From positions 1 to 41,514 of the IMG/VR virus record IMGVR_UViG_3300020021_000023: a DNA stretch of 41,514 nucleotides. One strand, 5' to 3'. Under the pieces are notes generated by a model that was given only the letters and a program-made list of their open reading frames with translations, had not been told where the DNA came from and made no database searches. Shown here in pieces: positions 3,105-40,103 of this stretch (positions within the stretch are counted from its first letter, which is position 1; each line of letters begins with the position of its first letter). Position numbers and translations under genes: made by a program. This DNA comes from a virus.

Positions 3105-3181
3105 TGGTTTGGCCTACCCGTACTTTCGTTATCACCTCAGCCCGTGTGGGTTCGACATGGGAGGGTTTCAGTGGCGAATAG
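3104..3181 (+). CDS. Short coupled leader ORF inside element E1
   Basis: A 25-codon frame starts MVWPTR, contains VGSTW and ends at TAG 3179-3181. Its ATG overlaps the upstream TGA and its end overlaps the next gene's start. A second copy of the same arrangement lies at 12922-12987, sharing MVWPTR and VGSTW. It may be a translational-coupling leader rather than a functional peptide. Confidence 0.4.
   Translation: MVWPTRTFVITSARVGSTWEGFSGE
3108..3160 (+). repeat. Boundary element E1, forward
   Basis: Outer block TTTGGCCTACCC, inner block GTTCGACATGG. The inner block is followed at once by GAGGG, which serves as the ribosome binding site for GTG 3171. No clear inward partner was found downstream. 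Confidence 0.8.
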
Positions 3182-5295: not shown

Positions 5296-5544
5296 ATGTT
5301 GGCCTCGGTTAACAATTCGGGACGACGGGCGCTACCTGTTCGACAGGGTGGTGTGCGGGAATGCGGAGAACTTCAACCGCTGTTTGTGTTGGGCCGGATT
5401 CTCATCATGCTCAAAACCCTGACACCGGAAGAACGGGTCTACACGGTGCTCCGCGCCGAATCCCTTCTCAGGGTTTACGGTCACTACTTCCCTCCGCCGA
5501 CTGTCGAACATGATTACTCCGACGTGCAAGGAGGTGATCGATGA
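5296..5544 (+). CDS. Cassette protein between E2 and E3
   Basis: An 82-residue frame begins inside E2 as MLASVNNSG...LPVRQG and ends inside E3 as TVEH...GGDR. The body (LTPEERVYTVLRAESLLRVYGHYF) is predicted helical. Both termini are therefore encoded by the inverted boundary elements. Its stop overlaps the next start (ATGA at 5541). No family is recognised. Confidence 0.6.
   Translation: MLASVNNSGRRALPVRQGGVRECGELQPLFVLGRILIMLKTLTPEERVYTVLRAESLLRVYGHYFPPPTVEHDYSDVQGGDR
5299..5348 (+). repeat. Boundary element E2, forward
   Basis: TTGGCCTCGG...GTTCGACAGGG. Preceded by a T run and the ATG that opens the cassette ORF. Pairs with E3, about 150 bp downstream. Confidence 0.85.
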
Positions 5545-5550
5545 GGCCAA
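5501..5550 (-). repeat. Boundary element E3, reverse
   Basis: CTGTCGAAC...ATGAGGCCAA. The outer block contains both the stop of the cassette ORF and the ATG of the next gene. GGAGG lies inside the variable part, 10 nt before that ATG. Confidence 0.85.
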
Positions 5551-7987: not shown

Positions 7988-8523
7988 ACGATTGCCTCCG
8001 AGATCCGCTTATCTATAACGGGCAGTTTCCCTTCCAGGCGAAGTACGCAACCGGGCGCGTGCTCAACGTCGGCTGCAACTCGGACGGAGCGGGGTTCCGG
8101 CAACGGGGCGGGGTGAACATCGACTTGTTCCGCAAAGACGACCACACCGGCTGGGATCTCCCGGTCGACGCACAGGCCGACGCGCGGCGGCTCCCGTTCG
8201 GCAAGAATTCGTTCGATTCGGTTGTGCTGGGAGAAATCCTCGAGCACATGCAGACGCACGATGCGGTTGCTTCCTTGCGCGAAGCGAAAACGGTGTTGAA
8301 ACCGGGCGGGCGAGTGGTCGCAACCATTCCGCATGACGACCGCGGCGGGCCGGATCACATCCCGGAATACGCTCCCGGCATCGCGGCCTATCACTACCGC
8401 GAAATCACGCGGTGCGAGTTTTTCGATTGGATCAAGGCGGCGGGGCTCAAGCTGATCGTCTGGGGAAAAATCGTTCACGTGTGGGGCAAAGAGGGAACGG
8501 GGATTGTCGCGGTGTGCCCATGA
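7984..8523 (+). CDS. SAM-dependent methyltransferase (class I)
   Basis: The 179-residue protein starts with TTG, overlapping the upstream stop (TTGA), with AAGGAGG 7 nt before it. Motif I is VLNVGCNSDGAGF, an acidic residue follows in NIDLF, and FDSVVLGEILEHM with KPGGRVVATIPHD are standard class I features. The family methylates small molecules, sugars or proteins; with glycosyltransferases on both sides, sugar or glycan methylation is the best inference. It is slightly shorter than typical stand-alone members. Confidence 0.8.
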   Translation: MNDCLRDPLIYNGQFPFQAKYATGRVLNVGCNSDGAGFRQRGGVNIDLFRKDDHTGWDLPVDAQADARRLPFGKNSFDSVVLGEILEHMQTHDAVASLREAKTVLKPGGRVVATIPHDDRGGPDHIPEYAPGIAAYHYREITRCEFFDWIKAAGLKLIVWGKIVHVWGKEGTGIVAVCP

Positions 8524-8696
8524 TGAATCTCGACAAAATGCGCGCGCTTGCGTTAAGGGACACGTGCCCGATGTGTTTTGGAGAACTCGATACAGGCTGG
8601 GAATGCAACAACTGCGGTTACGACGCAAAGCCGCTTGTCGATGGTGAAAAGCTAATCCGGGGACCGATGGCAGGAGAGGCCAATTCAACATGCTAG
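8520..8696 (+). CDS. Double-CxxC zinc ribbon protein
   Basis: The 58-residue protein has CPMCFGELDTGWECNNCGYD, a four-Cys zinc ribbon. It is a close paralogue of the protein at 16569-16730, which shares TCP-CFGELDTGWECNNCGYDA. The C-terminus AGEANSTC is encoded by element-like sequence E4. The start overlaps the methyltransferase stop (ATGATG). The role is unknown; such ribbons often bind nucleic acids or protein partners. Confidence 0.75.
   Translation: MMNLDKMRALALRDTCPMCFGELDTGWECNNCGYDAKPLVDGEKLIRGPMAGEANSTC
8634..8683 (-). repeat. Boundary element E4, reverse, unpaired
   Basis: CTTGTCGATGG...GAGAGGCCAA. No forward partner was found upstream, since the preceding bases are inside the methyltransferase. 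It may be a cassette remnant. Confidence 0.55.
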
Positions 8697-9754: not shown

Positions 9755-9859
9755 ATGTTGGCCTCGCCGAACAGTCCGGGACATCGAGATATGAAGGCTC
9801 GACAGTGTAGGATGTCTCGGATTTCGGCGCGGTGGGCACAACCAATTCAAGGAGGCTGA
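9755..9859 (+). CDS. Cassette leader ORF starting in E5
   Basis: A 34-codon frame opens as MLASPNSPGH inside E5 and stops 3 bp before the next ATG, with GGAGG in its last codons. It may encode a peptide or simply feed ribosomes into the 9863 gene. Confidence 0.35.
   Translation: MLASPNSPGHRDMKARQCRMSRISARWAQPIQGG
9758..9806 (+). repeat. Boundary element E5, forward
   Basis: TTGGCCTCGCCG...GCTCGACAG. The first ten bases of the outer block (GGCCTCGCCG) match its partner E6. Confidence 0.85.
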
Positions 9860-9862
9860 TAC

Positions 9863-10096
9863 ATGGCGGACGAACAGAAACCTGAAGTGCCGGAATTCGC
9901 GCAACCCCTGATCGACTATCTGGAAATGCAGTGGCATCCAGATCCGGCGCGGCATCCGGAGCAAGCCCAAAAGCTAATGGCTCTCCGCAGGGCGCTCGCT
10001 TTGCCCGATCCGCCAGAAGAAACGGCCCCTGTCGATGAAACGATAGATGACCTAGCCGCAAATTCCGGCGAGGCCAACAACCAGGAAGGAGAATAG
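9863..10096 (+). CDS. Small acidic cassette protein
   Basis: The 77-residue acidic protein (MADEQKPEVPEFAQPLIDYL...) is predicted helical, with EMQWHPDPARHPEQAQKLMAL. Its C-terminal ANSGEANNQEGE is read through E6. A GGAGG lies 8 nt upstream. It is the main gene of the E5-E6 cassette; function unknown. Confidence 0.65.
   Translation: MADEQKPEVPEFAQPLIDYLEMQWHPDPARHPEQAQKLMALRRALALPDPPEETAPVDETIDDLAANSGEANNQEGE
10029..10077 (-). repeat. Boundary element E6, reverse
   Basis: CTGTCGATG...CGGCGAGGCCAA. Pairs with E5 to bracket about 320 bp. Translated in frame as part of the 9863 protein. Confidence 0.8.
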
Positions 10097-11864: not shown

Positions 11865-11919
11865 TTGTCGGCCTCATCGGGCGTTCGCGTTCTGAGGGGC
11901 CTCCATCGTTCGACATGGG
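11865..11919 (+). repeat. Boundary element E7, forward (empty cassette, left end)
   Basis: TTGTCGGCCTCATCG...GTTCGACATGG. Its inner end GTTCGACATGGGCGGT is complementary, with one bulged T, to the inner end of E8 only 11 bp further on. Confidence 0.85.
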
Positions 11920-11940: not shown

Positions 11941-11990
11941 CTGTCGAACCATCGGTATCCCATCTGGCCGGGATCTACGGGTAGGCCAGA
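11941..11990 (-). repeat. Boundary element E8, reverse (empty cassette, right end)
   Basis: CTGTCGAACC...GGGTAGGCCA. With E7 it forms a cassette of about 126 bp with no room for a gene. The variable part GGCCTACCCGTA (reverse complement) matches E1. Confidence 0.8.
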
Positions 11991-12922: not shown

Positions 12923-12987
12923 TGGTTTGGCCTACTCGCGCAACGCACTGCGCGGCGGGTTTTGTGGGTTCGACATGGACGAATTGA
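12922..12987 (+). CDS. Short coupled leader ORF inside E9
   Basis: A 21-codon frame, MVWPTRATHC...VGSTWTN, begins at TGATG overlapping the previous stop and shares MVWPTR and VGSTW with the leader at 3104. Both are read through element sequence in the same frame. Confidence 0.4.
   Translation: MVWPTRATHCAAGFVGSTWTN
12926..12978 (+). repeat. Boundary element E9, forward
   Basis: TTTGGCCTACTCGCG...GTTCGACATGG, with an internal hairpin CGCGCA/TGCGCG. Pairs with E10. Confidence 0.85.
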
Positions 12988-13000
12988 GAGACATCACGAA

Positions 13001-13369
13001 ATGGGATCGGCGGCTATGATCATCCTTCGCCAGTTGTGCTGGTGGTTGCCGAAGTGCCGCAAATGTGGAAGCCGCGACCCTCTTTTCGCTGACCAATGTT
13101 TCAATTGCTCAGTCGCCGAATCGAAAGCGCAAATGTGGCGCGGCATCGCAGACGCTGCCGTTCAGTTGGCACCGTTGTTTGTTGAAGCTTTCACGCATCG
13201 AACCACCAGGAGCGTGCGACGCTTCGTGCGCAGAAATCCCCGGTTGCGATTGAAAGCCGCCCATTCCGATGAGTTGAAGGAATTGAGAAAAATGGCCGGG
13301 TTGCCTGAGTCCTCACCTGTCGAGCCTGCAAAGCCGACCGATGCTGCTGATAGCGGCGAGGCCAAGTAA
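13001..13369 (+). CDS. Zinc ribbon cassette protein
   Basis: This protein of about 122 residues has CRKCGSRDPLFADQCFNCS, a four-Cys zinc ribbon, after a WWLPK segment. A helical region and a basic patch (RSVRRFVRRNPRLRLK) follow, and the tail is DAADSGEAK, read through E10. The frame is open upstream through E9 (WVRHGR), so the true start could be TTG 12962, ATG 13001 or ATG 13016. Its TAA overlaps the next ATG. A nucleic-acid-binding accessory protein is plausible. Confidence 0.65.
   Translation: MGSAAMIILRQLCWWLPKCRKCGSRDPLFADQCFNCSVAESKAQMWRGIADAAVQLAPLFVEAFTHRTTRSVRRFVRRNPRLRLKAAHSDELKELRKMAGLPESSPVEPAKPTDAADSGEAK
13317..13366 (-). repeat. Boundary element E10, reverse
   Basis: CTGTCGAGCC...GGCGAGGCCAAG. 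Translated as VEP...SGEAK. GAGG sits 8 nt before ATG 13369. Confidence 0.85.
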
Positions 13370-14899: not shown

Positions 14900-15180
14900 A
14901 GTCTTTTAGGTCGGCCTCGTCACAATCGGGTGAGACGGTGCTGGTTCAGCAGCGACATGCAGGCGACGAGGTGCCCTGTCCGGACTGCAAAACCCTCATA
15001 AAATTGCAGCCTTCAGCGTGTACCTGCCGAACTTGCCGGGACACTCTGTACATACCTGAGCACCGCAATTCAAAGGGCAAGCACTGCCCCGCCAGTAGTC
15101 ACGGCTGGAAAGTCCCCGACCTGGTCGGACGCGATCTAGGTGGGTCACCGAGCACGGGAAGACCGGAGGCTAAAGCATAA
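14896..15180 (+). CDS. Zinc ribbon cassette protein (class B cassette)
   Basis: The 94-residue protein reads through E12 at its N-terminus (MKSFRSASSQSGETVLVQQR) and E13 at its C-terminus (LVGRDLGG...GRPEAKA). Between them is a zinc ribbon, CPDCKTLIKLQPSACTCRTC, followed by a second possible metal site (CPASSHGWK). The start overlaps the upstream stop (ATGA). Both ends being element-encoded shows that the elements here are part of the gene. Confidence 0.75.
   Translation: MKSFRSASSQSGETVLVQQRHAGDEVPCPDCKTLIKLQPSACTCRTCRDTLYIPEHRNSKGKHCPASSHGWKVPDLVGRDLGGSPSTGRPEAKA
14911..14959 (+). repeat. Boundary element E12, forward, class B left end
   Basis: TCGGCCTCGTCACAATCGGG...GGTTCAGCAGCGACATG. 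The inner block has the variant TTCAGCAGCGACA seen also in E26 and E53. Confidence 0.85.
15121..15174 (-). repeat. Boundary element E13, reverse, class B right end
   Basis: CTGGTCGGACGC...GGAAGACCGGAGGCTAAA. This variant is shared with E27 and E52, whose partners are also class B. Confidence 0.85.
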
Positions 15181-16404: not shown

Positions 16405-16569
16405 ATGTTGGCCTCGTCACAGTCGACCGCTTCGCCTGTTCCTCTGCCTGTTCGACATGGGCAAACTGAGCCTTGGACAATCGACTTGAATGATCCCAGA
16501 TTGCAGCCGGTCTACTGGTATGCAAATCGATTTCGTACCCAGTATGCCACCAAAGAAGGGGCGGACTGA
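16405..16569 (+). CDS. Cassette protein starting in E14
   Basis: The 54-residue frame is MLASSQSTASPVPLPVRHGQ... then DLNDPRLQPVYWYANRFRTQ. The whole first 20 residues come from E14. TGA overlaps the next ATG (TGATG). The downstream half looks like a genuine protein sequence, so the element seems to supply the N-terminus. Confidence 0.6.
   Translation: MLASSQSTASPVPLPVRHGQTEPWTIDLNDPRLQPVYWYANRFRTQYATKEGAD
16408..16460 (+). repeat. Boundary element E14, forward
   Basis: TTGGCCTCGTCACAGTCGACC...GTTCGACATGG. Shares GGCCTCGTCACA with its partner E15, 750 bp away. Confidence 0.9.
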
Positions 16570-16730
16570 TGGATCTCAAAAAGGTTCGTGCCGTGGCCCT
16601 GCAAGATACCTGCCCGATCTGTTTCGGAGAACTCGACACAGGCTGGGAGTGCAATAACTGCGGTTATGACGCTATGCCGCTCGTGACGGGCGCGCTACAA
16701 CCAATCGCAGACCCTCAGGGAGGGGTATAG
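16569..16730 (+). CDS. Double-CxxC zinc ribbon, paralogue of the 8520 gene
   Basis: The 53-residue protein has CPICFGELDTGWECNNCGYD, almost identical to the 8520 protein over 30 residues. The copies sit 8 kb apart, one beside a solo element and one inside a full cassette. Start and stop overlap both neighbours (TGATG; TAGTG). Function unknown. Confidence 0.75.
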   Translation: MDLKKVRAVALQDTCPICFGELDTGWECNNCGYDAMPLVTGALQPIADPQGGV

Positions 16731-16960: not shown

Positions 16961-17220
16961 TAATCTGGGCCGTGCTGAAGGATATAGGAATCCTCATCGC
17001 ACCGTCCAGGATTATCTGCCTTGGCGGCATGCATGAAGCGAAAGCGGGAATATTCGTGGCATCGGTGCGCGACGGCGAAAGTGGAGTGTTCGCGGACATC
17101 GATGAGGCTGAAACCTTCCTGGTCCACCAGTTGAGGAAAAGCATCCGGTCATTCACGCCCCTGACTGTCGAGCACTCCCCCGCCGACCAAGCCGCAAAGT
17201 GTGACGAGGCCAAACCATGA
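16957..17220 (+). CDS. Cassette protein ending in CDEAKP
   Basis: The 87-residue protein has alternating hydrophobic strands (IIWAVLKDIGILIAPSRIIC) and an acidic segment. Its tail TVEHSPADQAAKCDEAKP is encoded by E15. Start and stop overlap neighbours (ATGA). Unknown function. Confidence 0.65.
   Translation: MIIWAVLKDIGILIAPSRIICLGGMHEAKAGIFVASVRDGESGVFADIDEAETFLVHQLRKSIRSFTPLTVEHSPADQAAKCDEAKP
17165..17214 (-). repeat. Boundary element E15, reverse
   Basis: CTGTCGAGC...TGTGACGAGGCCAAA, followed by CC-ATG. GAGG is 7 nt before ATG 17217. Pairs with E14 around three complete genes and most of a fourth. Confidence 0.9.
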
Positions 17221-17852: not shown

Positions 17853-18082
17853 AGTCTTTTGGGTTGGCCTCATCGGGCGATCGCGCTGCGAACGAACCTG
17901 ACGGCGTTCGACATTCACGGGTTTCCTGGTGGCGAACCATGTTGTTTGAGGCGAGGTGCTGGTGGTGTTGGACGTATCCCAACATTGTCTTCATGCACCT
18001 GATGGGCTACAACCGGCAGACGATCGACTCACTTTGTGAAAGGCACGACGCGAAAATGCCGATTGATCCGAGGGGCGAATGA
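17849..18082 (+). CDS. Cassette protein with element-encoded N-terminus
   Basis: The 77-residue frame (GTG overlapping the upstream stop as GTGA) reads MKSFGLASSGDRAANEPDG-VRHSRV from E16, then an aromatic, Trp- and Cys-rich body (CWWCWTYPNIVFMHLMGY). It ends PRGE, overlapping the next ATG. The N-terminus shows the LAS...VRH signature. Possibly membrane-associated. Confidence 0.65.
   Translation: MKSFGLASSGDRAANEPDGVRHSRVSWWRTMLFEARCWWCWTYPNIVFMHLMGYNRQTIDSLCERHDAKMPIDPRGE
17864..17914 (+). repeat. Boundary element E16, forward
   Basis: TTGGCCTCATCGGGCGATCGCG...GTTCGACATT. Pairs with E17. The variable part resembles E7 and E47 (TCGGGCG, GATCGCGCT). Confidence 0.85.
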
Positions 18083-18222
18083 CCCGCGACCTTGCAGCAC
18101 TCGCGGCGCGCGTCCTCTTGATCTGGTCGACGTGGGCGTTTCATCGCCTGTCAGCACGAAAGCGGCAACGTGTCGAGAAGGCTCAGGCCGCACAAGCCGG
18201 AAACGAGAGCGAGGCCAAATAA
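18079..18222 (+). CDS. Small membrane cassette protein ending ESEAK
   Basis: The 47-residue protein has one hydrophobic segment (ALAARVLLIWSTWAF) and a basic-then-polar tail (RKRQRVEKAQAAQ) ending GNESEAK through E17. The start overlaps the previous stop (ATGA). Likely a one-helix inner membrane protein. Confidence 0.6.
   Translation: MTRDLAALAARVLLIWSTWAFHRLSARKRQRVEKAQAAQAGNESEAK
18170..18219 (-). repeat. Boundary element E17, reverse
   Basis: GTGTCGAGAAGG...GAGCGAGGCCAAA. GAGG lies 10 nt before ATG 18225. Confidence 0.8.
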
Positions 18223-18775: not shown

Positions 18776-18828
18776 TTTGGCCTCACCGACCATCGCTTTT
18801 CACGTGTGACGGTCGGGGTTCGACATGG
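18776..18828 (+). repeat. Boundary element E18, forward
   Basis: TTTGGCCTCACCGACCATCG...GTTCGACATGG with internal stem CCGACC/GGTCGG. Its outer 19 bases match partner E19 with one mismatch, the best within-pair match. Confidence 0.9.
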
Positions 18829-19313
18829 GGCCGATTATGAGCCGCATGGATAATTGGTTCCGAAAGAAAGACCCGCGGCGAATTCCTCCAAAACCTCTCG
18901 CTTCCCGAAACGACGAGAACCTTGAAAAGATGCAGTCAATCATCGACCGCCAGAAGTCCGGGGAAATTACTGGCGAGCAAGGATCGATTGAAGCCGATGA
19001 GATGTTCATGGAGGCATCCGGGGACGAACGTCTGATCTATTATTCCGACAGCACGGGACTAACCGCCGATTGGCACCCGGACCTGATGCTTTTTCCGCGG
19101 CCGGGCTCGACCGCGGCGAAGTTGATCCCCAGCAATACCGGGATTTTCGCGCGTGGTCCTCAGCGTGGATGGCTCTTCACGAAGCCCGGAGAAACCCCCG
19201 ACTGTATGCCGGATGTCCTGGAGCACTTCACTACCGGATCAAAGGGGTGGATCAACGGACCAGGGCCAACTGTCGAGCGCACCAAAGCCGACGCGCAGAG
19301 CGATGGTCGCTGA
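18825..19313 (+). CDS. Cassette protein of unknown function, 162 residues
   Basis: The start ATG may be 18825, inside the inner block of E18, or 18837. The protein has a basic N-terminus (WFRKKDPRRIPPKP), a helical acidic region (ENLEKMQSIIDRQKSGEITG) and a compact domain (LIYYSDSTGLTADWHPDLMLFPR, GWLFTKPGETPDC). The last residues VERTKADAQSDGR are encoded by E19 and the stop is the TGA of TGAGGCC. No family is recognised. Confidence 0.65.
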   Translation: MGPIMSRMDNWFRKKDPRRIPPKPLASRNDENLEKMQSIIDRQKSGEITGEQGSIEADEMFMEASGDERLIYYSDSTGLTADWHPDLMLFPRPGSTAAKLIPSNTGIFARGPQRGWLFTKPGETPDCMPDVLEHFTTGSKGWINGPGPTVERTKADAQSDGR

Positions 19314-19320
19314 GGCCAAC
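19270..19320 (-). repeat. Boundary element E19, reverse
   Basis: CTGTCGAGC...CGATGGTCGCTGAGGCCAA. GAGG is 7 nt before ATG 19323. Pairs with E18. Confidence 0.9.
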
Positions 19321-22131: not shown

Positions 22132-22187
22132 AAAAGAGGGGAGCACCCTGGAAGCTTATTCCTTGTCCTACGGGGTGCTCTCTTTTT
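22132..22187 (+). terminator. Rho-independent terminator
   Basis: AAAAGAG-GGG-AGCACCC (22132-22148) pairs with GGGTGCTCTCTTTT (about 22174-22187, GGG bulge), and the run TCTTTTT merges with the TTTGGCC of E20. It would end transcription of the 21774 gene just before the next cassette. Confidence 0.75.
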
Positions 22188-22239
22188 GGCCTCACCGCTA
22201 ATCGCGCTTCGCGTCGGTTGGTGAGGGTTCGACAATGGG
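22185..22239 (+). repeat. Boundary element E20, forward
   Basis: TTTGGCCTCACC...GGTGAGG-GTTCGACAATGG: a perfect 7-bp internal stem CCTCACC/GGTGAGG. GGGAGG follows as the ribosome binding site for GTG 22247. Pairs with E21. Confidence 0.9.
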
Positions 22240-23008: not shown

Positions 23009-23929
23009 CTGACGAAGCCACTTTGCATCGATCTGTTTTGCGGACTCGGCGGCTGGGCTGATGGGTTTCTCGCCGAAGGCTACGACGTTATTGGATTCGA
23101 CATCGAGCGGACTGGCGGGTATCCCGGCCAGCTCGTGCTTCAGGACGTGCTCACGCTGGACGGCCGGCAGTTCCGCAACGCTGCGGTGATCGTGGCAAGC
23201 CCGCCGTGTCAGGCGTACAGCTATCGGGGAATGCCCTGGGGCGCGATGTGGCGCGAGCACAACCGCATGGATGACGACGGCGGACCAGCGGGAAACTACC
23301 GAGGCAAAGACCCGATATTAAACGATCTCTTTTGGGCATGTTTCAGAATTGCGCGCGAGGCCGGTTTGCCCGTCATCGTCGAGAACGTCAAGAATGCTCA
23401 ACAATTCGTAGGCCCTGCCGCATGGCATTACGGGAGTTTTTATCTGTGGGGAGATGTTCCCGCGCTGATGCCGATTACGCGCCGCATGTTCATGGGCGCA
23501 TGGAACAACGAAGTGCGGGGGAAGATGCGACGGCTGGATATCAGAGACGGAGCCGGACACACCCGACACCTGACCAATCCCGCCGAACATGGTTTGAAGG
23601 GCGGCAACGGCTCATGGTTCAACGTGTCCCACGGCGAACGGCGAGAAGGGAACAGTGCCGGGAATCCGATTCGCGGCGACGGTCTAAAGGGCGTCCCCGG
23701 AATTCGTCTAAAGAATGTGGGTTTCAATGTTGCAAACGCGCAGCGCTGGCGAGAAGAACAGCAAAACGCAGAGATGAAAGCTAATGGCACTATTTCACCC
23801 GGTCGATTGCACGGCAAAAACTCCGATTCCCGCAAAGCAGCCTCCGCACAGATAGCCAAGATACCATTCCCTCTGGCGCAGCATATCGCGAGAGTTTTCA
23901 AACCGCCCATGTCGAACCCTCGTCCCTGA
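23009..23929 (+). CDS. DNA cytosine-C5 methyltransferase
   Basis: This protein of about 306 residues has motif I CIDLFCGLGGWADGF, the catalytic motif IV SPPCQAYSY, motif VI VIVENVKN and the later ITRRMFMG. It methylates cytosine at C5 in DNA, here probably to protect the element from host restriction, since no cognate nuclease is nearby. The frame has no ATG, GTG or TTG near its N-terminus; GGAGG at 22999-23003 places a CTG start at 23009, or the frame runs from the element. The C-terminus (PPMSNPRP) is encoded by E23. It fills the E22-E23 cassette. Confidence 0.85.
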   Translation: MTKPLCIDLFCGLGGWADGFLAEGYDVIGFDIERTGGYPGQLVLQDVLTLDGRQFRNAAVIVASPPCQAYSYRGMPWGAMWREHNRMDDDGGPAGNYRGKDPILNDLFWACFRIAREAGLPVIVENVKNAQQFVGPAAWHYGSFYLWGDVPALMPITRRMFMGAWNNEVRGKMRRLDIRDGAGHTRHLTNPAEHGLKGGNGSWFNVSHGERREGNSAGNPIRGDGLKGVPGIRLKNVGFNVANAQRWREEQQNAEMKANGTISPGRLHGKNSDSRKAASAQIAKIPFPLAQHIARVFKPPMSNPRP

Positions 23930-23958
23930 AGCGCAGCGCCCAAGGCCGGTGAGGCCAA
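23907..23958 (-). repeat. Boundary element E23, reverse
   Basis: CCATGTCGAACC...GCGCAGCGCC...CCGGTGAGGCCAA. Shares the CTGCGC centre of the class A consensus. Its partner E22 is more diverged, suggesting the ends changed independently. Confidence 0.85.
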
Positions 23959-26171: not shown

Positions 26172-26223
26172 TTGGCCTCACCGAACCTGAATGTTGCACT
26201 TGAGCGGCGTGGGTTCGACAGGG
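26172..26223 (+). repeat. Boundary element E24, forward
   Basis: TTGGCCTCACCG...GTTCGACAGGG, followed by AGGG and ATG 26232. Internal pairing CCTCACCG/CGGCGTGGG. Pairs with E25. Confidence 0.9.
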
Positions 26224-26231
26224 AGGGTTAA

Positions 26232-26576
26232 ATGCCGATTTATATAACTGAGCGTTCAATCGCGGTACAGGCTCCGGTGTTTTATTGCGACACTTGCGGG
26301 GCGTCGATGGATTTGGTATCCGAACTGGCCGACTTTCGGCTGCTACGGACGGGCGGAAGAGCCGAGGGTATGGCTATGGCTTACGGCTGGCTGCATGAAA
26401 TACCCGGTATTCCGAATACGGTCGAGAAAGCTGTTGCCTCTGCTGCCGGGCGGGGTTGGGTCACGGAGGACATCCACGGAAAAATCATGGCAATATGCCC
26501 TTTGTGCAAAGTGAAGCCAATTGTCGCTGGTGAACATTCGGTCCAAGCCAAAAAGCCGGGCGAGGCCAAACCATGA
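26232..26576 (+). CDS. Zinc-binding cassette protein ending KPGEAKP
   Basis: The 114-residue protein has CDTCGASMD near residue 20 and CPLCKVKP near 94, two CxxC pairs that probably bind one zinc ion around a helical insertion (AYGWLHEIPGIPNTVEKAVA). Tail KKPGEAKP from E25. GGAGGG from E24 is the ribosome binding site. Nucleic-acid or protein adaptor, unknown. Confidence 0.7.
   Translation: MPIYITERSIAVQAPVFYCDTCGASMDLVSELADFRLLRTGGRAEGMAMAYGWLHEIPGIPNTVEKAVASAAGRGWVTEDIHGKIMAICPLCKVKPIVAGEHSVQAKKPGEAKP
26521..26570 (-). repeat. Boundary element E25, reverse
   Basis: TTGTCGCTGGTGAAC...GGGCGAGGCCAAA-CC-ATG. The inner block is the class B left variant (TGTCGCTGGTGAAC) placed at a right end. 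GAGG is 7 nt before ATG 26573. Confidence 0.85.
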
Positions 26577-28138: not shown

Positions 28139-28204
28139 ATGTCGGCCTCGTCACAAGCGGCAGGAACGTTGACGGTTCACCAGCGACACGGGGGCCGTCC
28201 GTGA
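28139..28204 (+). CDS. Cassette leader ORF from E26
   Basis: A 21-codon frame, MSASSQAAGTLT-VHQRHGGRP, is wholly element-encoded and its TGA overlaps GTG 28201. It has the same layout as the N-terminus of the 14896 protein. Confidence 0.4.
   Translation: MSASSQAAGTLTVHQRHGGRP
28141..28190 (+). repeat. Boundary element E26, forward, class B left end
   Basis: GTCGGCCTCGTCACAAGCGG...GGTTCACCAGCGACACGG. Matches E53 almost exactly in ACGTTGACGGTTCACCAGCG. Confidence 0.9.
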
Positions 28205-28572
28205 TCGTCCAGGATGGGGTTGAGGTTCTCGAATCTATCAGCCTGGCGTTCCCGAACATCTCTCCGGTGGACATGGCCCACCTGTTTGACCGTTGCAGCG
28301 TCAAGGTTACCGTCAACCATAAGCTGATCGCAGACCCCTCACTTAAGCACTTTGATCCGGTAGGAGATTGGCATCGCTTCGAACTCGAATACAAAGTAAA
28401 GCCGGGCGATTCTGTGGTAGTCCACTTCGACACCGTCCCCCCATTCACGACAGAATACGGCCTGACGCTTAATGCTGCTTTGAGTTTTCGCGGGAACATT
28501 AACGCCCTCCACCTGGCCGGACGCTTCAACGCCGAACGAAGCCACCCCGGAAGACCGGAGGCCAAAGCATAA
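28201..28572 (+). CDS. Class B cassette protein, 123 residues
   Basis: GTG start, mostly beta: VTVNHKLIADPS, FELEYKVKPGDSVVVHFD, YGLTLNAALSF. Tail HLAGRFNAERSHPGRPEAKA encoded by E27, matching the C-termini of the 14896 and 39580 proteins. Its TAA overlaps the M23 start. Function unknown. Confidence 0.65.
   Translation: MIVQDGVEVLESISLAFPNISPVDMAHLFDRCSVKVTVNHKLIADPSLKHFDPVGDWHRFELEYKVKPGDSVVVHFDTVPPFTTEYGLTLNAALSFRGNINALHLAGRFNAERSHPGRPEAKA
28513..28566 (-). repeat. Boundary element E27, reverse, class B right end
   Basis: CTGGCCGGACGC...GGAAGACCGGAGGCCAAA. Same class as E13 and E52. Confidence 0.9.
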
Positions 28573-29313: not shown

Positions 29314-29358
29314 TTTGGCCTCACCAACCGCGAGCCTCTTTGAACTGTTCGACATGTG
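29314..29358 (+). repeat. Boundary element E28, forward
   Basis: TTTGGCCTCACC...GTTCGACATGTGG. Right end, in transcript sense, of the E28-E29 cassette on the minus strand. Confidence 0.8.
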
Positions 29359-29760: not shown

Positions 29761-29811
29761 CATGTCGAACCCGATTCCTCAACGCGCGATCTCAGTGCTG
29801 TTGAGGCCAAA
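29761..29811 (-). repeat. Boundary element E29, reverse
   Basis: CATGTCGAACC...AACGCGCGATC...GTTGAGGCCAAA. Left end for the minus strand; its outer block encodes SLWPQQH and the stop of the 29792 gene. Confidence 0.85.
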
Positions 29812-30243: not shown

Positions 30244-30297
30244 CCTGGTCGAACGCTCTCAACTCCCCGCGCAGCCGTCAGGCCGAATGAGGCCAAA
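30244..30297 (-). repeat. Boundary element E30, reverse, TGGTCGAACG variant
   Basis: CCTGGTCGAACGCTCTC...CCGCGCAGCCG...AATGAGGCCAAA. Left end on the minus strand without a separate right end. Confidence 0.8.
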
Positions 30298-30712: not shown

Positions 30713-30993
30713 TTTGGGTTGGCCTCCGGTCTTCCTTGTTCGGCTTCGGGCGGCTGTCGGCGTCCGACCAGGTCGGGGACTAGATTCTTCCCAACGAAGA
30801 GGCGCTTGAACCGTTCGCCGTCCACCTTGACGAGGATTCGCTTGTCCGTGACTTTTTCCACGATTCCCTTCAATGTCGGCATGGTCCTGTGCATGACTCG
30901 CATTCCGGGGAGAAATACTGGTCCTGGTCGAACGCTTTCAGGCTCACGTGCAGAACCCGCGCCGACTGAGGCCAAAACATCATCGTTTGCCAT
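30709..30993 (-). CDS. KOW-like small protein with translated element at both ends
   Basis: 94 residues from ATG 30993 (AGGA 8 nt upstream). Residues 6-24 (VLASVGAG-SAREPESVRPG) are read through E32. The core TLKGIVEKVTDKRILVKVDG-ERFKRLFVGKNLV looks like a KOW-type beta motif. The end DLVGRRQPPEAEQGRPEANPK is from E31. A shorter start at ATG 30903 would skip E32. Candidate RNA- or protein-binding adaptor. Confidence 0.65.
   Translation of the reverse strand: MANDDVLASVGAGSAREPESVRPGPVFLPGMRVMHRTMPTLKGIVEKVTDKRILVKVDGERFKRLFVGKNLVPDLVGRRQPPEAEQGRPEANPK
30719..30772 (+). repeat. Boundary element E31, forward, class B
   Basis: TTGGCCTCCGGTCTTCC...GCGTCCGACCAGG. Translated in reverse sense as LVGRR...GRPEAN. 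Pairs with E32. Confidence 0.85.
30923..30976 (-). repeat. Boundary element E32, reverse, TGGTCGAACG variant
   Basis: CCTGGTCGAACGCTTTCAGG...GACTGAGGCCAAAA. Nearly the same as E49 in its inner 28 bases. Confidence 0.85.
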
Positions 30994-31225: not shown

Positions 31226-31564
31226 TTAGCCTCTTGGGTTGGCCTCACCGGCCTGTTGTTCTGGCGCGTCGGGGGCTGAGGGTTCGACATGGAGGGCTTC
31301 CTGGTTCTCGGAAATAGCGCTCTCGATCTCATCGCGGGTCAGGGCTCCATACCTCACGTCCGGTCCGCCCCACACTTGTCTGCTAAGCTTGCGAAGTTCG
31401 AGAATATTCAAGAGTCCCTGGCTGTTCCTTATCAGTTGGGCTTCCAGTCTCTTACAGCGCTCGCACTCCGGCTGTCGAGCACTCTCCCCTTCCCGCGAAG
31501 CATCCGATTGTGGCGAGGCCAAACCATAAGATTCAAACCCTGCCCGGCAACCATCGCAGATCAC
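31226..31564 (-). CDS. Zinc-finger-like cassette protein with internal element
   Basis: 112 residues. MICDGCRAGFESYG holds one CxxC; then residues from E34 (LASPQSDASREGESARQP) separate it from ECERCKRLEAQL, the second CxxC. A helical region and the E33-encoded tail VEPSAPDAPEQQAGEANPRG follow. The element thus sits between the two halves of a probable zinc site. Confidence 0.7.
   Translation of the reverse strand: MICDGCRAGFESYGLASPQSDASREGESARQPECERCKRLEAQLIRNSQGLLNILELRKLSRQVWGGPDVRYGALTRDEIESAISENQEALHVEPSAPDAPEQQAGEANPRG
31239..31292 (+). repeat. Boundary element E33, forward
   Basis: TTGGCCTCACCGGCCTG...GTTCGACATGG. Translated in reverse sense as VEPSAPDAPEQQAGEA. Pairs with E34. Confidence 0.85.
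31472..31523 (-). repeat. Boundary element E34, reverse
   Basis: CTGTCGAGC...GATTGTGGCGAGGCCAAA. In-frame as LASPQ...ESARQP within the 31226 protein. Confidence 0.85.
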
Positions 31565-31914: not shown

Positions 31915-32294
31915 TTTGTTTTGGCCTCCAATTGGCTATCTGGCTCCGTGGGGTTATTGTTCGTCCGACCAGGAAGGGTTTCGCGGCCCTCCGCTTTGGC
32001 GATGGCTACGGTGGCGGGGCGGCACATATCACACAAGTTTCCCCTGGGATGCCTAGGTTCGCCAGGGGTCTTGCCGCATCCTGCGCATTTGATTGCCCTC
32101 AGCGCTTGCAGTAGCTCCGGCGCGGCGGCGATCAGATTCGCTCTGTAGTGATATTTAATCCAAGAAACGGGATCGCTGTATTTCTCAACGCGCGATGTAG
32201 TCGCTAAGATTTTTCCCTGTTCATCACGAATGCAGGCGCCCGCTTCATCGTGTTCACCAGTGAATCCCGATATTACCCATTTTTCTGTGCTCAC
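31911..32294 (-). CDS. LIAAAPELL-type phage protein, 127 residues
   Basis: GTG start with AGGAGATG upstream. KWVISGFTGEHDEAG, NLIAAAPELLQALRAIKCAG and CGKTPGEPRHPRGNLCDMC (possible zinc site) are followed by AIAKAEGR. The LIAAAPELL...AIAKAEG frame is a common small phage protein type of unknown role. The tail LPGRTNNN...SQLEAKTK comes from E36. The next gene (32291) is its tandem relative. Confidence 0.7.
   Translation of the reverse strand: MSTEKWVISGFTGEHDEAGACIRDEQGKILATTSRVEKYSDPVSWIKYHYRANLIAAAPELLQALRAIKCAGCGKTPGEPRHPRGNLCDMCRPATVAIAKAEGRETLPGRTNNNPTEPDSQLEAKTK
31919..31973 (+). repeat. Boundary element E36, forward, class B
   Basis: TTGGCCTCCAATTGG...TTCGTCCGACCAGG. Right end for the 31911 gene. 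Its partner is the half-element E37. Confidence 0.8.
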
Positions 32295-32877: not shown

Positions 32878-32930
32878 TTTGGCCTCACCGGGTACTGGTC
32901 TGCGCGGGTGGGGTTGTGGGTTCGACATGG
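32878..32930 (+). repeat. Boundary element E38, forward
   Basis: TTTGGCCTCACCGGG...CTGCGCGGGTGGGG...GTTCGACATGG. Centre and inner block match partner E39. Confidence 0.9.
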
Positions 32931-33226: not shown

Positions 33227-33279
33227 CATGTCGAACCCGCACCCCTCACGCGCAGCCGTCAAGGCCCGTGAGGCCAAAC
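33227..33279 (-). repeat. Boundary element E39, reverse
   Basis: CCATGTCGAACCC...ACGCGCAGCCGTC...CGTGAGGCCAAA. Good example of the class A consensus. Confidence 0.9.
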
Positions 33280-33519: not shown

Positions 33520-33824
33520 TTGGCCTCCGGTCCCGCACCGCTGCTTCGGTCGGCGGTATCGCGTCCGTCCAGGACTGGCGCTAGCGGATTCCCAACCGGC
33601 AAGCCGGCATACTCGCACAACTCGGCGATTCGCCGAATCAACTCAGGACCGTTTTCAGCCCGGAACAGGGCGCAGGGCACCAGTTCTCCCGACGTGTCAT
33701 CCCATTCCCTCATCAGTGGATGCCGGATGCCGACAAAGAATTTCTTGCAGCCGGGTTGCTGGCATTCACACGGCTGTACCAGAAACTCGGGACCCGGCTC
33801 GCGTTTACGCCTCTTTATTTTCAC
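33516..33824 (-). CDS. Basic cassette protein ending GPEAK, 102 residues
   Basis: GTG start with GGGAGGGG upstream. CECQQPGCKKFFVGIRHP suggests a small metal site, followed by an acidic/helical part (LIRRIAELCEYAGLPVG). Tail from E40. Unknown. Confidence 0.65.
   Translation of the reverse strand: MKIKRRKREPGPEFLVQPCECQQPGCKKFFVGIRHPLMREWDDTSGELVPCALFRAENGPELIRRIAELCEYAGLPVGNPLAPVLDGRDTADRSSGAGPEAK
33519..33573 (+). repeat. Boundary element E40, forward, class B
   Basis: TTTGGCCTCCGGTCCC...GCGTCCGTCCAGG. Encodes LDGRDTADRSSGAGPEAK in reverse sense. Its partner E41 is class A, so classes can mix. Confidence 0.85.
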
Positions 33825-33833
33825 AACCCCTCC

Positions 33834-33882
33834 CTGTCGAACCCACGGCTCCCACGCGCGGACTCAAGTCCGGTGAGGCCAA
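33834..33882 (-). repeat. Boundary element E41, reverse
   Basis: CTGTCGAACCCACGGCTCCC...GTCCGGTGAGGCC. With its flanks it is nearly identical to E43, 300 bp away. Internal stem GGACT-CAA-GTCC. Confidence 0.95.
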
Positions 33883-33894
33883 CGAAAACACATC

Positions 33895-34131
33895 TCATTT
33901 GTCGGCCTCGCCGGGATGTGCGGCTTGGACCGGCTCCGAAGTCTCGACAGTTGGCTTTTCGGTGATTTCCAGATGGAAACCGTAGACCCGATCGTTGAAT
34001 AAGACTTCAACCGGTAGCCCGGTCAGCCTTTCGAGATCGAACGCTTGCCGGCAGACGTCGTGCAAAAAACTGCCGTTGTTCGCCCGGACCTGTACCAACT
34101 CTATCTCGCTGAATTGCTTATGTATGCTCAC
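33895..34131 (-). CDS. Small cassette protein ending PGEADK, 78 residues
   Basis: GTG start, GGGAGGG upstream from E43. MSIHKQFSEIELVQVRANNG, then CRQAFDLERLTGLPVEVLF and HLEITEK, an alpha/beta mix. Its C-terminus (VETSEPVQAAHPGEADK) is from E42. The gene is bracketed by E42 and E43. Confidence 0.65.
   Translation of the reverse strand: MSIHKQFSEIELVQVRANNGSFLHDVCRQAFDLERLTGLPVEVLFNDRVYGFHLEITEKPTVETSEPVQAAHPGEADK
33899..33950 (+). repeat. Boundary element E42, forward
   Basis: TTGTCGGCCTCGCCGGG...GTCTCGACAG. Pairs with E43. The 15 bp between E41 and E42 is one of the shortest cassette gaps. Confidence 0.85.
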
Positions 34132-34514
34132 AAACCCTCCCTGTCGAACCCACGGCTCCCACGCGCAGACTCAAGTCCGGTGAGGCCAAAATATCGCAGT
34201 CGAAACATCCGGATCAACCCGTACCGATCCAGCCGATGCACCAACCAAAACCGTTTTCCAAGCGTGTGATGCGATTTCGGAAGCCCCCGCTCATGATGCA
34301 CCCGGCAGAACGGCAGCACTTCCCAGCCGTCGCACAACTGCGAAAGCCCACGCATCCCCACGTGACAAACCTGCACCCACCTACGCGACCCACAGACCGC
34401 GCACGGCTGCTCTCTGATCCAATCCCAGTACGCGAGGATCTCCGGCGGCACGACGTAGCGGCGCGGCTTGCGCTTGAGCCAGGAACGGCGGAGGGGTGTG
34501 TAGCGGGCGATCAT
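34128..34514 (-). CDS. HNH/DUF968-like protein with element-encoded tail
   Basis: 128 residues. PCAVCGSRRWVQVCHVGMRG, then LPFCRVHHERGLPKSHHTLG and KRFWLVHRLD follow the pattern of small phage HNH-like proteins (CxxC...H, then C..HH..G...H). Zinc coordination and a beta-beta-alpha nuclease fold are inferred. The end RYFGLTGLESARGSRGFDR is read through E43 in another frame, so the natural C-terminus appears replaced. Start ATG overlaps the upstream stop. Confidence 0.75.
   Translation of the reverse strand: MIARYTPLRRSWLKRKPRRYVVPPEILAYWDWIREQPCAVCGSRRWVQVCHVGMRGLSQLCDGWEVLPFCRVHHERGLPKSHHTLGKRFWLVHRLDRYGLIRMFRLRYFGLTGLESARGSRGFDREGL
34141..34190 (-). repeat. Boundary element E43, reverse
   Basis: CTGTCGAACCCACGGCTCCC...AGTCCGGTGAGGCCAAA. 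Nearly identical to E41. Supplies GGGAGGG for the 33895 gene. Confidence 0.95.
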
Positions 34515-34696: not shown

Positions 34697-34953
34697 AATT
34701 CCCCATGTCGAACCCGGCACCCCCCACGCGCAGCCGTCGAGGCCGGTGAGGCCAACCCCAAAAGCTTCCTTCCCCACGCCGTTACCGGCTTTCCATCCCG
34801 TACATGCACCACACATTCCCCCTGTGGCCGATCTCCGCTTTCGTTCCATCCGTAGGAACCTGATCCCTTTCCACCTTCGCTTGCCGGGCCGTTTCCGAGC
34901 TGATGCGCACGTCCGCCGAAACGCTGCACTGAGAATCTGATGGGTTCGTTCAT
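34693..34953 (-). CDS. Small protein with element-encoded C-terminus (LASPAS...VRHGEL)
   Basis: 86 residues. The body MNEPIRFSVQRFGGRAHQLG is followed by CVVHVRDGKPVTAWGRKLLG. The last 20 residues (LASPASTAARGGCRVRHGEL) come from E44. In this case the left element end supplies a C-terminus rather than an N-terminus. Start is ATG after GAGG in E45. Confidence 0.65.
   Translation of the reverse strand: MNEPIRFSVQRFGGRAHQLGNGPASEGGKGSGSYGWNESGDRPQGECVVHVRDGKPVTAWGRKLLGLASPASTAARGGCRVRHGEL
34703..34756 (-). repeat. Boundary element E44, reverse
   Basis: CCATGTCGAACCCGGC...ACGCGCAGCCGTCGAGG...GGTGAGGCCAA. Class A consensus; no own right end. Confidence 0.9.
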
Positions 34954-35183
34954 GGTTTGGCCTCGTTACGGGTTGCGGCTTGGACGGGCGCGGCACCGTC
35001 GACAAGCGGCGATTCATTCACGGTCAACATCAATTCTTCCCTGACTGCGAAGATGTTCACGGGGGCCTTGAATTTCTGCCCGACCTGAATAGCCCACTCT
35101 TCGGCCATTTCCTTTGTGGGGCAGAATGTTTGCACGGTTCGCCCGTCTTCTTTAACGCCAACAACTACAGCGCGGAACTTCAT
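34950..35183 (-). CDS. Small cassette-end protein ending RNEAKP, 77 residues
   Basis: MKFRAVVVGVKEDGRTVQTF, then FCPTKEMAEEWAIQVGQKF and VNIFAVREELMLTV. The KFRAVVVG...W-tail style recalls small phage beta/alpha proteins. Tail from E45. Start ATG overlaps the upstream stop. Confidence 0.65.
   Translation of the reverse strand: MKFRAVVVGVKEDGRTVQTFCPTKEMAEEWAIQVGQKFKAPVNIFAVREELMLTVNESPLVDGAAPVQAATRNEAKP
34956..35004 (+). repeat. Boundary element E45, forward
   Basis: TTTGGCCTCGTTACGGG...GGCACCGTCGACAAG. Right end without a clear left partner upstream of the 35180 gene. Confidence 0.75.
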
Positions 35184-35559: not shown

Positions 35560-35613
35560 TTTGGCCTCCGGTCCGGCTTAGTGGCTTCGATCAGTCTGGG
35601 AGCGTCCGACCAG
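35560..35613 (+). repeat. Boundary element E46, forward, class B
   Basis: TTTGGCCTCCGGTCCGG...AGCGTCCGACCAGG. Pairs with E47 (class A). Partly translated as LVGRSQTDRSH. Confidence 0.85.
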
Positions 35614-35829: not shown

Positions 35830-36212
35830 TACTGCACCCTCCCGGCGCCCGCCGTCTTCGCAGGCGCGAAAATGTCATCCGGCAGATATTCTTCCATCGT
35901 GTCCTCTAAAATCTGATTGCGCTGTTTTGTCGACGGCTTGCGATATCCCGACCGGTCAACCCGTGGGGCAATAGCCGCATGTCGAACACGCCCGCCTTGG
36001 AGCGAAGCGCGATCGTCCGATGAGGCCAAAATGAACGCATCTAAGAATCTTGCCAACCTCCGTACCCCAGTCAGCCACAACACCCCAGCACCAAGGGACA
36101 CGGCAAGAAAGAAGCCAAGCCCGACAAAAGCGGCAGGGCGTCCGCCGGCTGAAATCACGATTCCCGTTATCAGCACCGAACCGGCGAGAAAGGCGAGTGA
36201 GTTTTTAATCAT
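35829..36212 (-). CDS. Membrane protein with internal element-encoded region, 127 residues
   Basis: Start at ATG 36212 (AGGAG 9 nt upstream). Two helices (LAFLAGSVLITGIVISAG, AAFVGLGFFLAVSLGAGVLW) are followed by RLARFLDAFI, then LASSDDRASLQGGRVRHA read from E47, then a basic region (RVDRSGYRKPSTKQRNQILE). It looks like an upstream gene fused in frame to the left end of the E46-E47 cassette. Confidence 0.65.
   Translation of the reverse strand: MIKNSLAFLAGSVLITGIVISAGGRPAAFVGLGFFLAVSLGAGVLWLTGVRRLARFLDAFILASSDDRASLQGGRVRHAAIAPRVDRSGYRKPSTKQRNQILEDTMEEYLPDDIFAPAKTAGAGRVQ
35977..36030 (-). repeat. Boundary element E47, reverse
   Basis: GCATGTCGAACACGCCC...GCGCGATCGTCCGATGAGGCCAAA. In frame as LASSD...GRVRH in the 35829 protein. 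Confidence 0.85.
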
Positions 36213-36708: not shown

Positions 36709-37199
36709 TCCACCTCCAGGGGTCCAAGATGTACCGGGTTATCCTGGCGTTCGTCGCAGAGTCCGCATAGACCTTCGGGGCCTAGTACTTTGGGACGGAA
36801 ACGGTGCCGCGGTTCTTTTTTGTCGGCCTCGGCATGGTGTGCGGCTTGTTCGGCTCGGGTTTGCTCGACATAGGCCGCTATCTTTCTGTCCAGGGCGTGG
36901 ATTTCATCGCGATCCCACCAACCGCACAGCGCACACTGGAATGTGTTTTTCAGGGATTCGAACCTGTGTGGAATCCTCCGGTAGTCTTCCCACGTCGGCA
37001 TTCCTGGTCGAACGCTTTCAGGCTCACGCGCAGGGCTCGAACTGACTGAGGCCAATGCATAGGCCTTGTCACCCTCTACGGCTCGGACATCCTTTTCACC
37101 ATCGACACGTGGGAAGGGTGCCTCGGATATCCACTTTTTGTACTTCTCATCCGACAGCACGAAGCAACCGCGCAAAGCCCACCAAACCCAACGAAGCAT
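36705..37199 (-). CDS. CxxC protein with a cassette in frame
   Basis: 164 residues. The first 47 (LRWVWWALRGCFVLSDEKYK...) lead into YALASVSSSPAREPESVRPG from E49. Then follow MPTWEDYRRIPHRFESLKNT and CALCGWWDRDEIH, the E48-encoded VEQTRAEQAAHHAEADKK, and finally HRFRPKVLGPEGLCGLCDER with PVHLGP. The two HRF...CxLC...H units are alike, one inside and one outside the E48-E49 bracket. The whole frame is open, so either a cassette entered a gene in frame or the gene was built by duplication. Confidence 0.6.
   Translation of the reverse strand: MLRWVWWALRGCFVLSDEKYKKWISEAPFPRVDGEKDVRAVEGDKAYALASVSSSPAREPESVRPGMPTWEDYRRIPHRFESLKNTFQCALCGWWDRDEIHALDRKIAAYVEQTRAEQAAHHAEADKKEPRHRFRPKVLGPEGLCGLCDERQDNPVHLGPLEVE
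36820..36873 (+). repeat. Boundary element E48, forward
   Basis: TTGTCGGCCTCGGCATG...TTGCTCGACATAGG. Pairs with E49 within one ORF. Confidence 0.8.
37003..37054 (-). repeat. Boundary element E49, reverse, TGGTCGAACG variant
   Basis: CCTGGTCGAACGCTTTCAGG...GACTGAGGCCAA. Translated as LASVSSSPAREPESVRPG, very close to the E32 translation. Confidence 0.85.
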
Positions 37200-37212: not shown

Positions 37213-37266
37213 TCCTGGTCGAACGCTCTCAGCTCGACGCCTCAAAACCGCCGACTGAGGCCAAAG
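37213..37266 (-). repeat. Boundary element E50, reverse
   Basis: TCCTGGTCGAACGCTCTC...GACTGAGGCCAAAG. Left end with no separate partner; the small 37242 ORF ends inside it (FGLSRRF). Confidence 0.8.
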
Positions 37267-38710: not shown

Positions 38711-38991
38711 AGGCCGGGCTGTACAAAGCGATCGATAAGAAGTACGCGGAGATGGAAGCGTCGATCAAGCTGCGTTTCCGGGAAGCTCACATGCGGATAG
38801 AGCGGCTTGAAAAGCAGGTCGGTAATCTCGCCCTCGAATTGGTCCTCATTAAGCAAGACTTCGAACACCACACACATAAAGTGTCCGGGTACGTCCAAGC
38901 TGGAGAAACGGTTTTAGAAACCGCTCCACCGGAGCGACAGTCTGTGAATGTCGAACGAGCTCGACCCCATGCACAGACTCAAGCCCGCTGA
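38707..38991 (+). CDS. Coiled-coil protein, 94 residues
   Basis: MKAGLYKAIDKKYAEMEASI, then HMRIERLEKQVGNLALELVL, a heptad-like coil. The tail NVERARPHAQTQAR comes from E51 and the stop is the TGA of TGAGGCC. It may work with the initiator upstream. Unknown family. Confidence 0.65.
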   Translation: MKAGLYKAIDKKYAEMEASIKLRFREAHMRIERLEKQVGNLALELVLIKQDFEHHTHKVSGYVQAGETVLETAPPERQSVNVERARPHAQTQAR

Positions 38992-38999
38992 GGCCAAAA
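38947..38999 (-). repeat. Boundary element E51, reverse
   Basis: ATGTCGAACGAGC...CAGACTCAAGCCCGCTGAGGCCAAAA. The left partner would be the degenerate block near 38690. Confidence 0.8.
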
Positions 39000-39580: not shown

Positions 39581-40044
39581 TATGGTTTGGCCTCCGGTCT
39601 TCCGTCGTTCTGCGATTCGGCGGGGTCGCGTCCGACCAGGTCAAGCGCTGCTTGCACGACGGCCAAACGCTTTTCAGCGTCCCTCAATTGCTGCTTATAC
39701 AACGGCAGCACCATGTTCGCGGCCGCTTTCATGTCCGGACTTTCGCCGACAAAAAGCAGCGAGGTAGCTTCGATGGATGCTCGCAGGCTCTCCACTCTTT
39801 CTGTCGCTTCGTAAAGATCATCCGGACTGGTTGCCGGGCTTGCCTGCGAATCCCTCAACCTCTGTTCGAATTCGCAGCACAGATAATTTCTGATCGCGAT
39901 TTGCAGTGGAGCGATTCCCAAACCCGGAAAGACGCGCGGTAGAATCGCGCACAGTTCGGACGCTAACGTCTCAGCGGCTTCGATATCTTCGCGCAGATCA
40001 TCGTCGGAAGGCACCCAATAATACGGATCATCTGGCGGAAACAT
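39580..40044 (-). CDS. Class B cassette protein, 154 residues
   Basis: MFPPDDPYYWVPSDDDLRED, a helical middle (FEQRLRDSQASPATSPDDLY, SLLFVGESPDMKAAANMVLP, LYKQQLRDAEKRLAVVQ) and the E52 tail LVGRDPAESQNDGRPEAKP. GGAGGGATTCC from E53 precedes ATG 40044. The gene fills the E52-E53 cassette. Unknown. Confidence 0.7.
   Translation of the reverse strand: MFPPDDPYYWVPSDDDLREDIEAAETLASELCAILPRVFPGLGIAPLQIAIRNYLCCEFEQRLRDSQASPATSPDDLYEATERVESLRASIEATSLLFVGESPDMKAAANMVLPLYKQQLRDAEKRLAVVQAALDLVGRDPAESQNDGRPEAKP
39586..39640 (+). repeat. Boundary element E52, forward, class B right end
   Basis: TTTGGCCTCCGGTCTTCC...GCGTCCGACCAGG. Same class as E13 and E27; partner E53 is the matching left class. Confidence 0.9.
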
Positions 40045-40053
40045 GGAATCCCT

Positions 40054-40103
40054 CCTGTCGCTGGTGAACCGTCAACGTCTCGCCCGATTGTGACGAGGCC
40101 AAA
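40054..40103 (-). repeat. Boundary element E53, reverse, class B left end
   Basis: CCTGTCGCTGGTGAACCGTC...GATTGTGACGAGGCCAAA. Nearly identical to E26 over the inner 20 bases. Confidence 0.9.

Follow-up and report, generated by a model that had tools for sequence, protein, structure and literature searches.

Repeated 50-bp elements at gene junctions in one group of viruses look like plug-in points for gene swapping

The viral DNA analyzed here (the window; the whole 41,514 bp of IMG/VR record IMGVR_UViG_3300020021_000023) contains two short sequences that differ at only one of 19 bases when one is read in reverse complement (18779-18797 against 19299-19317; GGCCTCACCGACCATCGCT starting at 18779 on the plus strand and GGCCTCAGCGACCATCGCT at 19317 on the minus strand), raising the question of whether they are the inverted repeats of a single unit. 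The preliminary description of the window, where the two copies were numbered E18 and E19, took such matching as what a unit of this kind should show, and its near-match is indeed present. The two elements bracket a 162-aa ORF that matches no known family and has a distant homologue in a related virus (G011, 5142-5249; 53% over 36 aa). The two ends of the window carry a 138-bp direct repeat, 98% identical (2-139 and 41377-41514), and the record is therefore probably nearly complete or a circular assembly.

E18 and E19 belong to a family of about 48 elements in the window, mostly 47-51 bp long, with the pattern TTGGCCTC-N33-GTTCGACA or TTGGCCTC-N33-GTCCGACC and variants thereof (Table 1); related genomes carry up to 76 elements each. 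Within a nearly fixed length of ~50 bp, TTGGCCTC forms the outer block and GTTCGACA/C the inner one, with CTTCG marking a weaker centre between them. The frequency of TTGGCCTC in the window exceeds expectation 26-fold, and in the related virus G005 the element pattern yielded 62 matches (29 forward, 33 reverse) vs none for a reversed control pattern. Across 100 aligned 49-bp copies, information peaks at positions 23-25 (TTC), 41-49 (CGTTCGACC) and 51-54 (GGAG) and at the outer end, where conservation is biased because the outer word was fixed by the word-based element search.

Table 1. Coordinates of the boundary elements and associated features in the window. S and E denote the two positions relative to accessory genes that are described in the text.
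Feature	Position	Strand	Remarks
Boundary element	3109..3157	+	
Boundary element S	5299..5345	+	junction empty in G004 (L008)
Boundary element E	5502..5550	-	includes start codon of gene at 5541
Zinc-ribbon-like small ORF region	8521..8638	+	repeated (77%) at 16567-16684
Boundary element, E only	8636..8683	-	gene + E added between core genes abutting in G001
E5 boundary element S	9758..9804	+	G001 has a small unit here; junction empty in G004
E6 boundary element E	10030..10077	-	
S of gene-free unit	11868..11915	+	122-bp unit
E of gene-free unit	11942..11989	-	122-bp unit, S at 11868..11915
Boundary element	12927..12975	+	
Boundary element	13318..13365	-	
Boundary element	14911..14956	+	GCGAC inner end
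Boundary element	15123..15173	-	TTAGCCTC outer end
E14 boundary element	16408..16457	+	
E15 boundary element	17166..17213	-	
Boundary element	17864..17913	+	
Boundary element	18171..18218	-	
E18 boundary element S	18777..18825	+	upstream of ORF 18825-19313; HMM E=6e-4
Accessory ORF bracketed by E18/E19	18825..19313	+	162 aa, no family match
E19 boundary element E	19271..19319	-	overlaps ORF 3' end; next ATG 19323; HMM E=3e-7
Boundary element	22186..22234	+	
Boundary element	23910..23958	-	
Boundary element	26172..26220	+	
Boundary element	26522..26569	-	GCGACA inner end, just upstream of gene at 26573
Boundary element	28142..28186	+	
Boundary element	28515..28565	-	
Boundary element	29315..29354	+	short
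Boundary element	29763..29810	-	
Boundary element	30247..30296	-	
Boundary element	30719..30769	+	
Boundary element	30926..30975	-	
Boundary element	31239..31289	+	
Boundary element	31473..31522	-	
Boundary element	31921..31970	+	
Boundary element	32879..32927	+	
Boundary element	33229..33277	-	
Boundary element	33520..33570	+	
Boundary element	33835..33882	-	variable core 97% identical to 34142-34189, outer flanks unrelated
Boundary element	33902..33949	+	
Boundary element	34142..34189	-	recent copy of or from 33835-33882
Boundary element	34706..34755	-	
Boundary element	34957..35004	+	
Boundary element	35561..35611	+	
Boundary element	35980..36029	-	
Boundary element	36823..36870	+	
Boundary element	37006..37055	-	
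Boundary element	37217..37264	-	
Boundary element	38949..38997	-	
Boundary element	39587..39637	+	
Boundary element	40057..40102	-	GCGAC inner end

The elements are arranged by a clear orientation rule. One copy (the S position) follows the stop codon of a gene and precedes the start of a small accessory gene, and an inverted copy (the E position) lies over the 3' end of the accessory gene and ends at the start codon of the next gene; for rightward genes, the plus copy is S and the minus copy is E, whereas beyond about 29 kb the leftward genes show the mirror image. Plus copies followed by minus copies are overrepresented among neighbours in the window (19 vs 12.0 expected, a value reached by 0 of 4000 shuffles), in G005 (32 vs 18.8) and in G017 (24 vs 16.2), bearing out the earlier observation of inward-facing pairs around genes. 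The partners differ in subtype, S copies being mostly of the type GGCCTCA and E copies often GGCCTCG or GGCCTCC, with the caveat that the roles are noisy assignments, made from the closest gene with a good score, and that genes were called by a simple codon-usage script that misses small ORFs. Testing for stop/start overlap (RTGA) failed to distinguish the two positions. A conserved C-terminal peptide encoded by the E copies was rejected by eye: the reading frame differs from copy to copy and in some is soon closed by a stop codon, which means that the constraint does not act on a single peptide.

Pair-specific matching did not withstand comparison with the rest of the family. Over the full 49-bp elements, E18 and E19 are identical at 34 positions, 20 of 21 in the outer part and 14 of 28 in the inner part; their outer score of 12/14 is equalled by seven non-partner pairs in the window and exceeded by four, and their whole-element score ranks 72 among 1128 window pairs. 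The words that E5/E6 and E14/E15 were said to share are present (9760/10075 and 16410/17211) but recur elsewhere: GGCCTCGCCG opens four elements (9760+, 10075-, 13363-, 33904+), and GGCCTCGTCACA, with six occurrences in the window (13823+, 14913+, 16410+, 17211-, 28144+, 40100-), is therefore not specific to a pair. The preliminary description had itself named a permutation of partners as the check. With elements collected by a rule combining the outer word, an inner CGAC word and a limited distance, and with partners defined as plus-then-minus neighbours, the mean match of the 18 window pairs over the outer 14 nt was 5.06 vs 4.56 after shuffling of the partners (p=0.20), and their score over the whole element was 0.25 vs 0.12 (p=0.44). 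In G005, G016, G017 and G006, partners were slightly less alike than shuffled ones (permutation, p=0.87-0.99), and among 218 paired elements from eight genomes the nearest relative was never the partner, with ~6 such cases expected by chance. The pair-specific claim is thus refuted by its own yardstick, and E18/E19 is an ordinary outlier, the likeness of its outer 21 bases being one of many chance or conversion matches in the family. The step from there to a unit with its own inverted repeats fails as well: partners do not match across the set, S and E are mostly different subtypes, and what is copied, as described below, is the single ~50-bp element.

Using the glycosyltransferase-like window protein encoded at 6635-7987 as a query, we found 16 related virus contigs (metagenomic, some of them fragments and designated here by G numbers), 7 of which carry the same elements, and two further carriers were found by pattern; a first search of viral contigs for the window's own variant gave no match. 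The query gene belongs to a core block (6635-9412; glycosyltransferase, methyltransferase and a second glycosyltransferase) that is conserved in nearly all relatives. Elsewhere in the window, 28572-29162 is a peptidase M23-like gene with matches to PHROG metallo-endopeptidase/endolysin families, the product of which is likely a lysis or tail enzyme; no known phage structural family was recognized among the window proteins searched. Other relatives carry elements of equal size, nearly all 47-53 bp, written in two other dialects: TTGGCGACC..GGTCGTTCCCCG in G008, G012, G013 and G010 (one copy in G010) and TTGGCGCTCTTCTC..GCGTTCGCGC in G009. In G011, G014 and G015 no elements were found, and these could carry an unrecognized dialect. 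As a family the elements are absent from bacterial and archaeal genomes: a scan of 84,980 species genomes for the dialect 1 pattern found it in six unrelated contigs, once in each, which looks like chance.

Presence of the elements at a given junction is polymorphic. In 338 comparisons of orthologous junctions among dialect 1 viruses and G004, which are not mutually independent, elements were found in both viruses in 101, in neither in 159 and in only one in 78. There are units with both ends that one virus has and another lacks at the corresponding junction. Among the clear differences, a ~145-bp unit of G005 lies between two genes that in both G007 and G017 share 4 bp, with overlapping stop and start codons, an insert of 505 bp in G005 corresponds to 0 bp in G017, 10 bp in G006 and 8 bp in G003, and the window and G001 carry units at two junctions that are empty, at about 15-70 bp, in G004. 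At the c3/c4 junction, the window and G016 contain a gene and an E without a recognizable S, G006 has a short in-frame E, and G001, G002, G005 and G007 have nothing there. Gene c2 ends in a lone E, but only in G001 and G005. One small gene is located between c10 and c12 in G005 and between c12 and c15 in G016, and is present in two copies in G017; the zinc-ribbon-like ORF of the window likewise occurs twice (8521-8638 and 16567-16684), and both observations speak for movement of cassettes. No target-site duplication was visible by eye at several empty junctions in viruses that are only 70-80% identical. Between viruses, element likeness follows the junction rather than the partner, with outer 12-nt values of 0.52-0.56 at orthologous junctions vs 0.36-0.39 at other junctions.

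The best reading of these observations, which we put forward tentatively and at somewhat less than even confidence, is that the elements are virus-specific DNA boundaries and serve as sites for the exchange of accessory genes. The element would function as double-stranded DNA, recognized in either orientation by a protein that would differ between dialects, and would form the common end of accessory gene cassettes; a gene with its flanking element or elements could be gained, lost or swapped between core genes while the neighbours remain undisturbed, and element copies may overwrite one another by ectopic conversion or copying and so stay alike. E18 and E19 with their ORF would be one such cassette. 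Counting against these boundary sites, no recombinase or transposase tracks the elements, and no target-site duplication is visible at the empty junctions inspected. Junction-specific likeness was expected to be lower in the inner than in the outer half, a drop that is not clear for S elements and modest for E elements. Conversion among old elements could also account, without any movement, for the near-identical copies described below.

The serious rival is that the elements are gene-expression signals, that is, promoters or translation or mRNA-processing signals at gene starts, with the E copy giving the next gene its ribosome site or translational coupling; we consider this possible, albeit unlikely. 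Element position and orientation follow transcription, and the strictness of this tie suggests a gene-expression constraint, against the boundary-site reading. In 57% of S copies and 25% of E copies (39% and 0%, respectively, in dialect 2), a Shine-Dalgarno word and a start codon are found no more than 40 nt from the inner end, the outer end of dialect 1 E copies, GAGGCCAA-N-ATG, looks like a ribosome site, GGAGGCC is also used at native junctions free of elements, elements are long-lived at the same junction, and gene-free units fold into long hairpins (z of -3 to -7). However, the outer ends in dialects 2 and 3 (GGTCGCCAA, GAGAAGAGCGCCAA) lose the ribosome word, so that a Shine-Dalgarno function fails there as the cause of outer-end conservation, and a single family serves both gene ends, in either orientation, as no one RNA signal could; on these two points the earlier contention that a plain shared ribosome-binding site is insufficient stands. 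Moreover, many orthologous junctions work without an element, and no Rfam family was matched. RNA pairing between partners was rejected by exchanging halves between units, partner ends pairing no better than shuffled ones, and an internal hairpin was rejected as well: covariation was confined to neighbouring columns, and RNAalifold gave no covarying structure.

The unit that is copied bears on a further alternative, the picture favoured by the preliminary description, in which S and E are the terminal inverted repeats of one MITE- or REPIN-like transposable doublet that is mobilized by a transposase in trans and sometimes carries genes as cargo. Pairs that face inward, gene-free units of 105-142 bp that fold as hairpins, several related small units scattered over G005 (most with 72-82% identity) and units missing at orthologous sites are all in line with such doublets. 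Nevertheless, among 9298 within-genome pairs of elements, the 43 with a variable-core identity of at least 0.78 have an element identity of 0.89, vs 0.27 for the flanks 16-30 bp outside and 0.35 for those 16-45 bp inside. In G013, the cores of the elements at 31838 and 40619 are identical and the flanks unrelated, and the window elements at 33882 and 34189 are another such near-identical pair. Near-identical copies thus share the element alone, implying that the copied or converted unit is a single element and not a pair, and 10 of the 43 pairs join a copy in the S role to one in the E role. Given also that partners are unmatched and do not specifically pair, that E-only additions occur, that units keep the same direction relative to transcription, and that no Y1 transposase, no shared DDE transposase and, by eye in viruses only 70-80% identical, no target duplication was seen, we regard the transposable doublet as improbable. 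Separately, two 133-bp stretches of the window (29802-29934 and 30288-30420) are 83% identical, the likeness stopping at the outer end of the element; this is a local gene duplication adjoining elements.

Chance, by which a G+C-rich genome, a common 8-mer and a forgiving eye would have produced the pattern, holds for the pair-specific claim, as the E18/E19 match lies within the chance range of the family, but is refuted, with practically nothing left in its favour, for the family itself by the excess of TTGGCCTC, the empty reversed-pattern control, the rigid spacing and the alternating strands.

Turning back to the boundary elements and the enzymes that might act on them, a serine recombinase is encoded in all larger relatives (e.g. 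G005, 44087-44755) but is missing from the window and G018, 41-kb members that have elements, and is present in G011, G014 and G015, where none were found; it was rejected because its presence does not track the elements. In G014 (L047; contig positions 29733-29770) and G015 (L049; 28181-28243), clusters of the palindrome GTGCAACCGGTTGCAC with the serine recombinase gene about 1.3-1.8 kb away are possibly sites of that enzyme. An IS1595-type transposase gene occurs only in G005 (L023; 55747-56658). The tyrosine integrase family PF00589 was absent from 17 records (control found in 14 of 14), the Y1 transposase (RAYT) family PF01797 was found in none of 14 (control found), and no RecT was detected.

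The family looks like a set of previously undescribed plug-in points for gene swapping, found only in this virus group. In a bolder version, which we hold to be rather unlikely, it would be an exchange system of the virus family, with orientation-independent 50-bp sites that bracket accessory genes and are copied singly from junction to junction, dialects that co-diverged with a putative recognition protein, and swaps occurring only within a dialect. The joints of phage mosaics are usually invisible; here many are marked by a recognizable element, dozens per genome and in several dialects, which makes the addition of small accessory genes between core genes testable by breakpoint counting. Should a dedicated recognition protein underlie the dialects, the viruses would have a gene-exchange system of their own.

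Literature searches found no description of these elements, and each of several known systems resembles them in part. In mobile insertion cassettes, IS ends enclose passenger genes but no transposase gene. The accessory genes here likewise lie between inward-facing ends with no transposase gene, but no source IS or transposase was found, the unit ends are unmatched and E-only additions occur. Integron cassettes (attC) need a tyrosine recombinase integrase, and PF00589 is absent here. The REP and REPIN sequences of bacteria also exist in many short copies per genome and form inverted doublets that fold, with their spacer, as hairpins (PMC3116915), much as the gene-free units here fold strongly, albeit without partner-specific pairing. 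REP sequences, however, are bacterial, palindromic, 20-40 bp long and RAYT-linked, whereas the elements described here have no Y1 transposase and no conserved internal hairpin, most of their doublets enclose genes, and copying involves single elements rather than the doublet. The SAS and ESAS repeats of Cluster K mycobacteriophages, of unknown function, are likewise phage-specific repeats at gene starts with a consensus that differs by subcluster (PMC3203893); they are located upstream of genes in nearly always one orientation, with none at gene ends, and ESAS carry 17-bp inverted repeats with spacers of mostly 4-13 bp, whereas the present elements occur in both orientations and at gene ends, too. 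Finally, the promoter-early stem-loops (PeSLs) of T4-type phages are short repeated intergenic motifs at gene junctions, reported to shuffle accessory genes between related phages (PMC4503421), and short repeated motifs at gene junctions with shuffling of accessory genes are found here as well. A PeSL combines an early promoter with a stem-loop terminator; in the element described here no covarying internal structure was found, and it has a nearly fixed length of ~49 bp, surrounds genes in both orientations and shifts in dialect between lineages.
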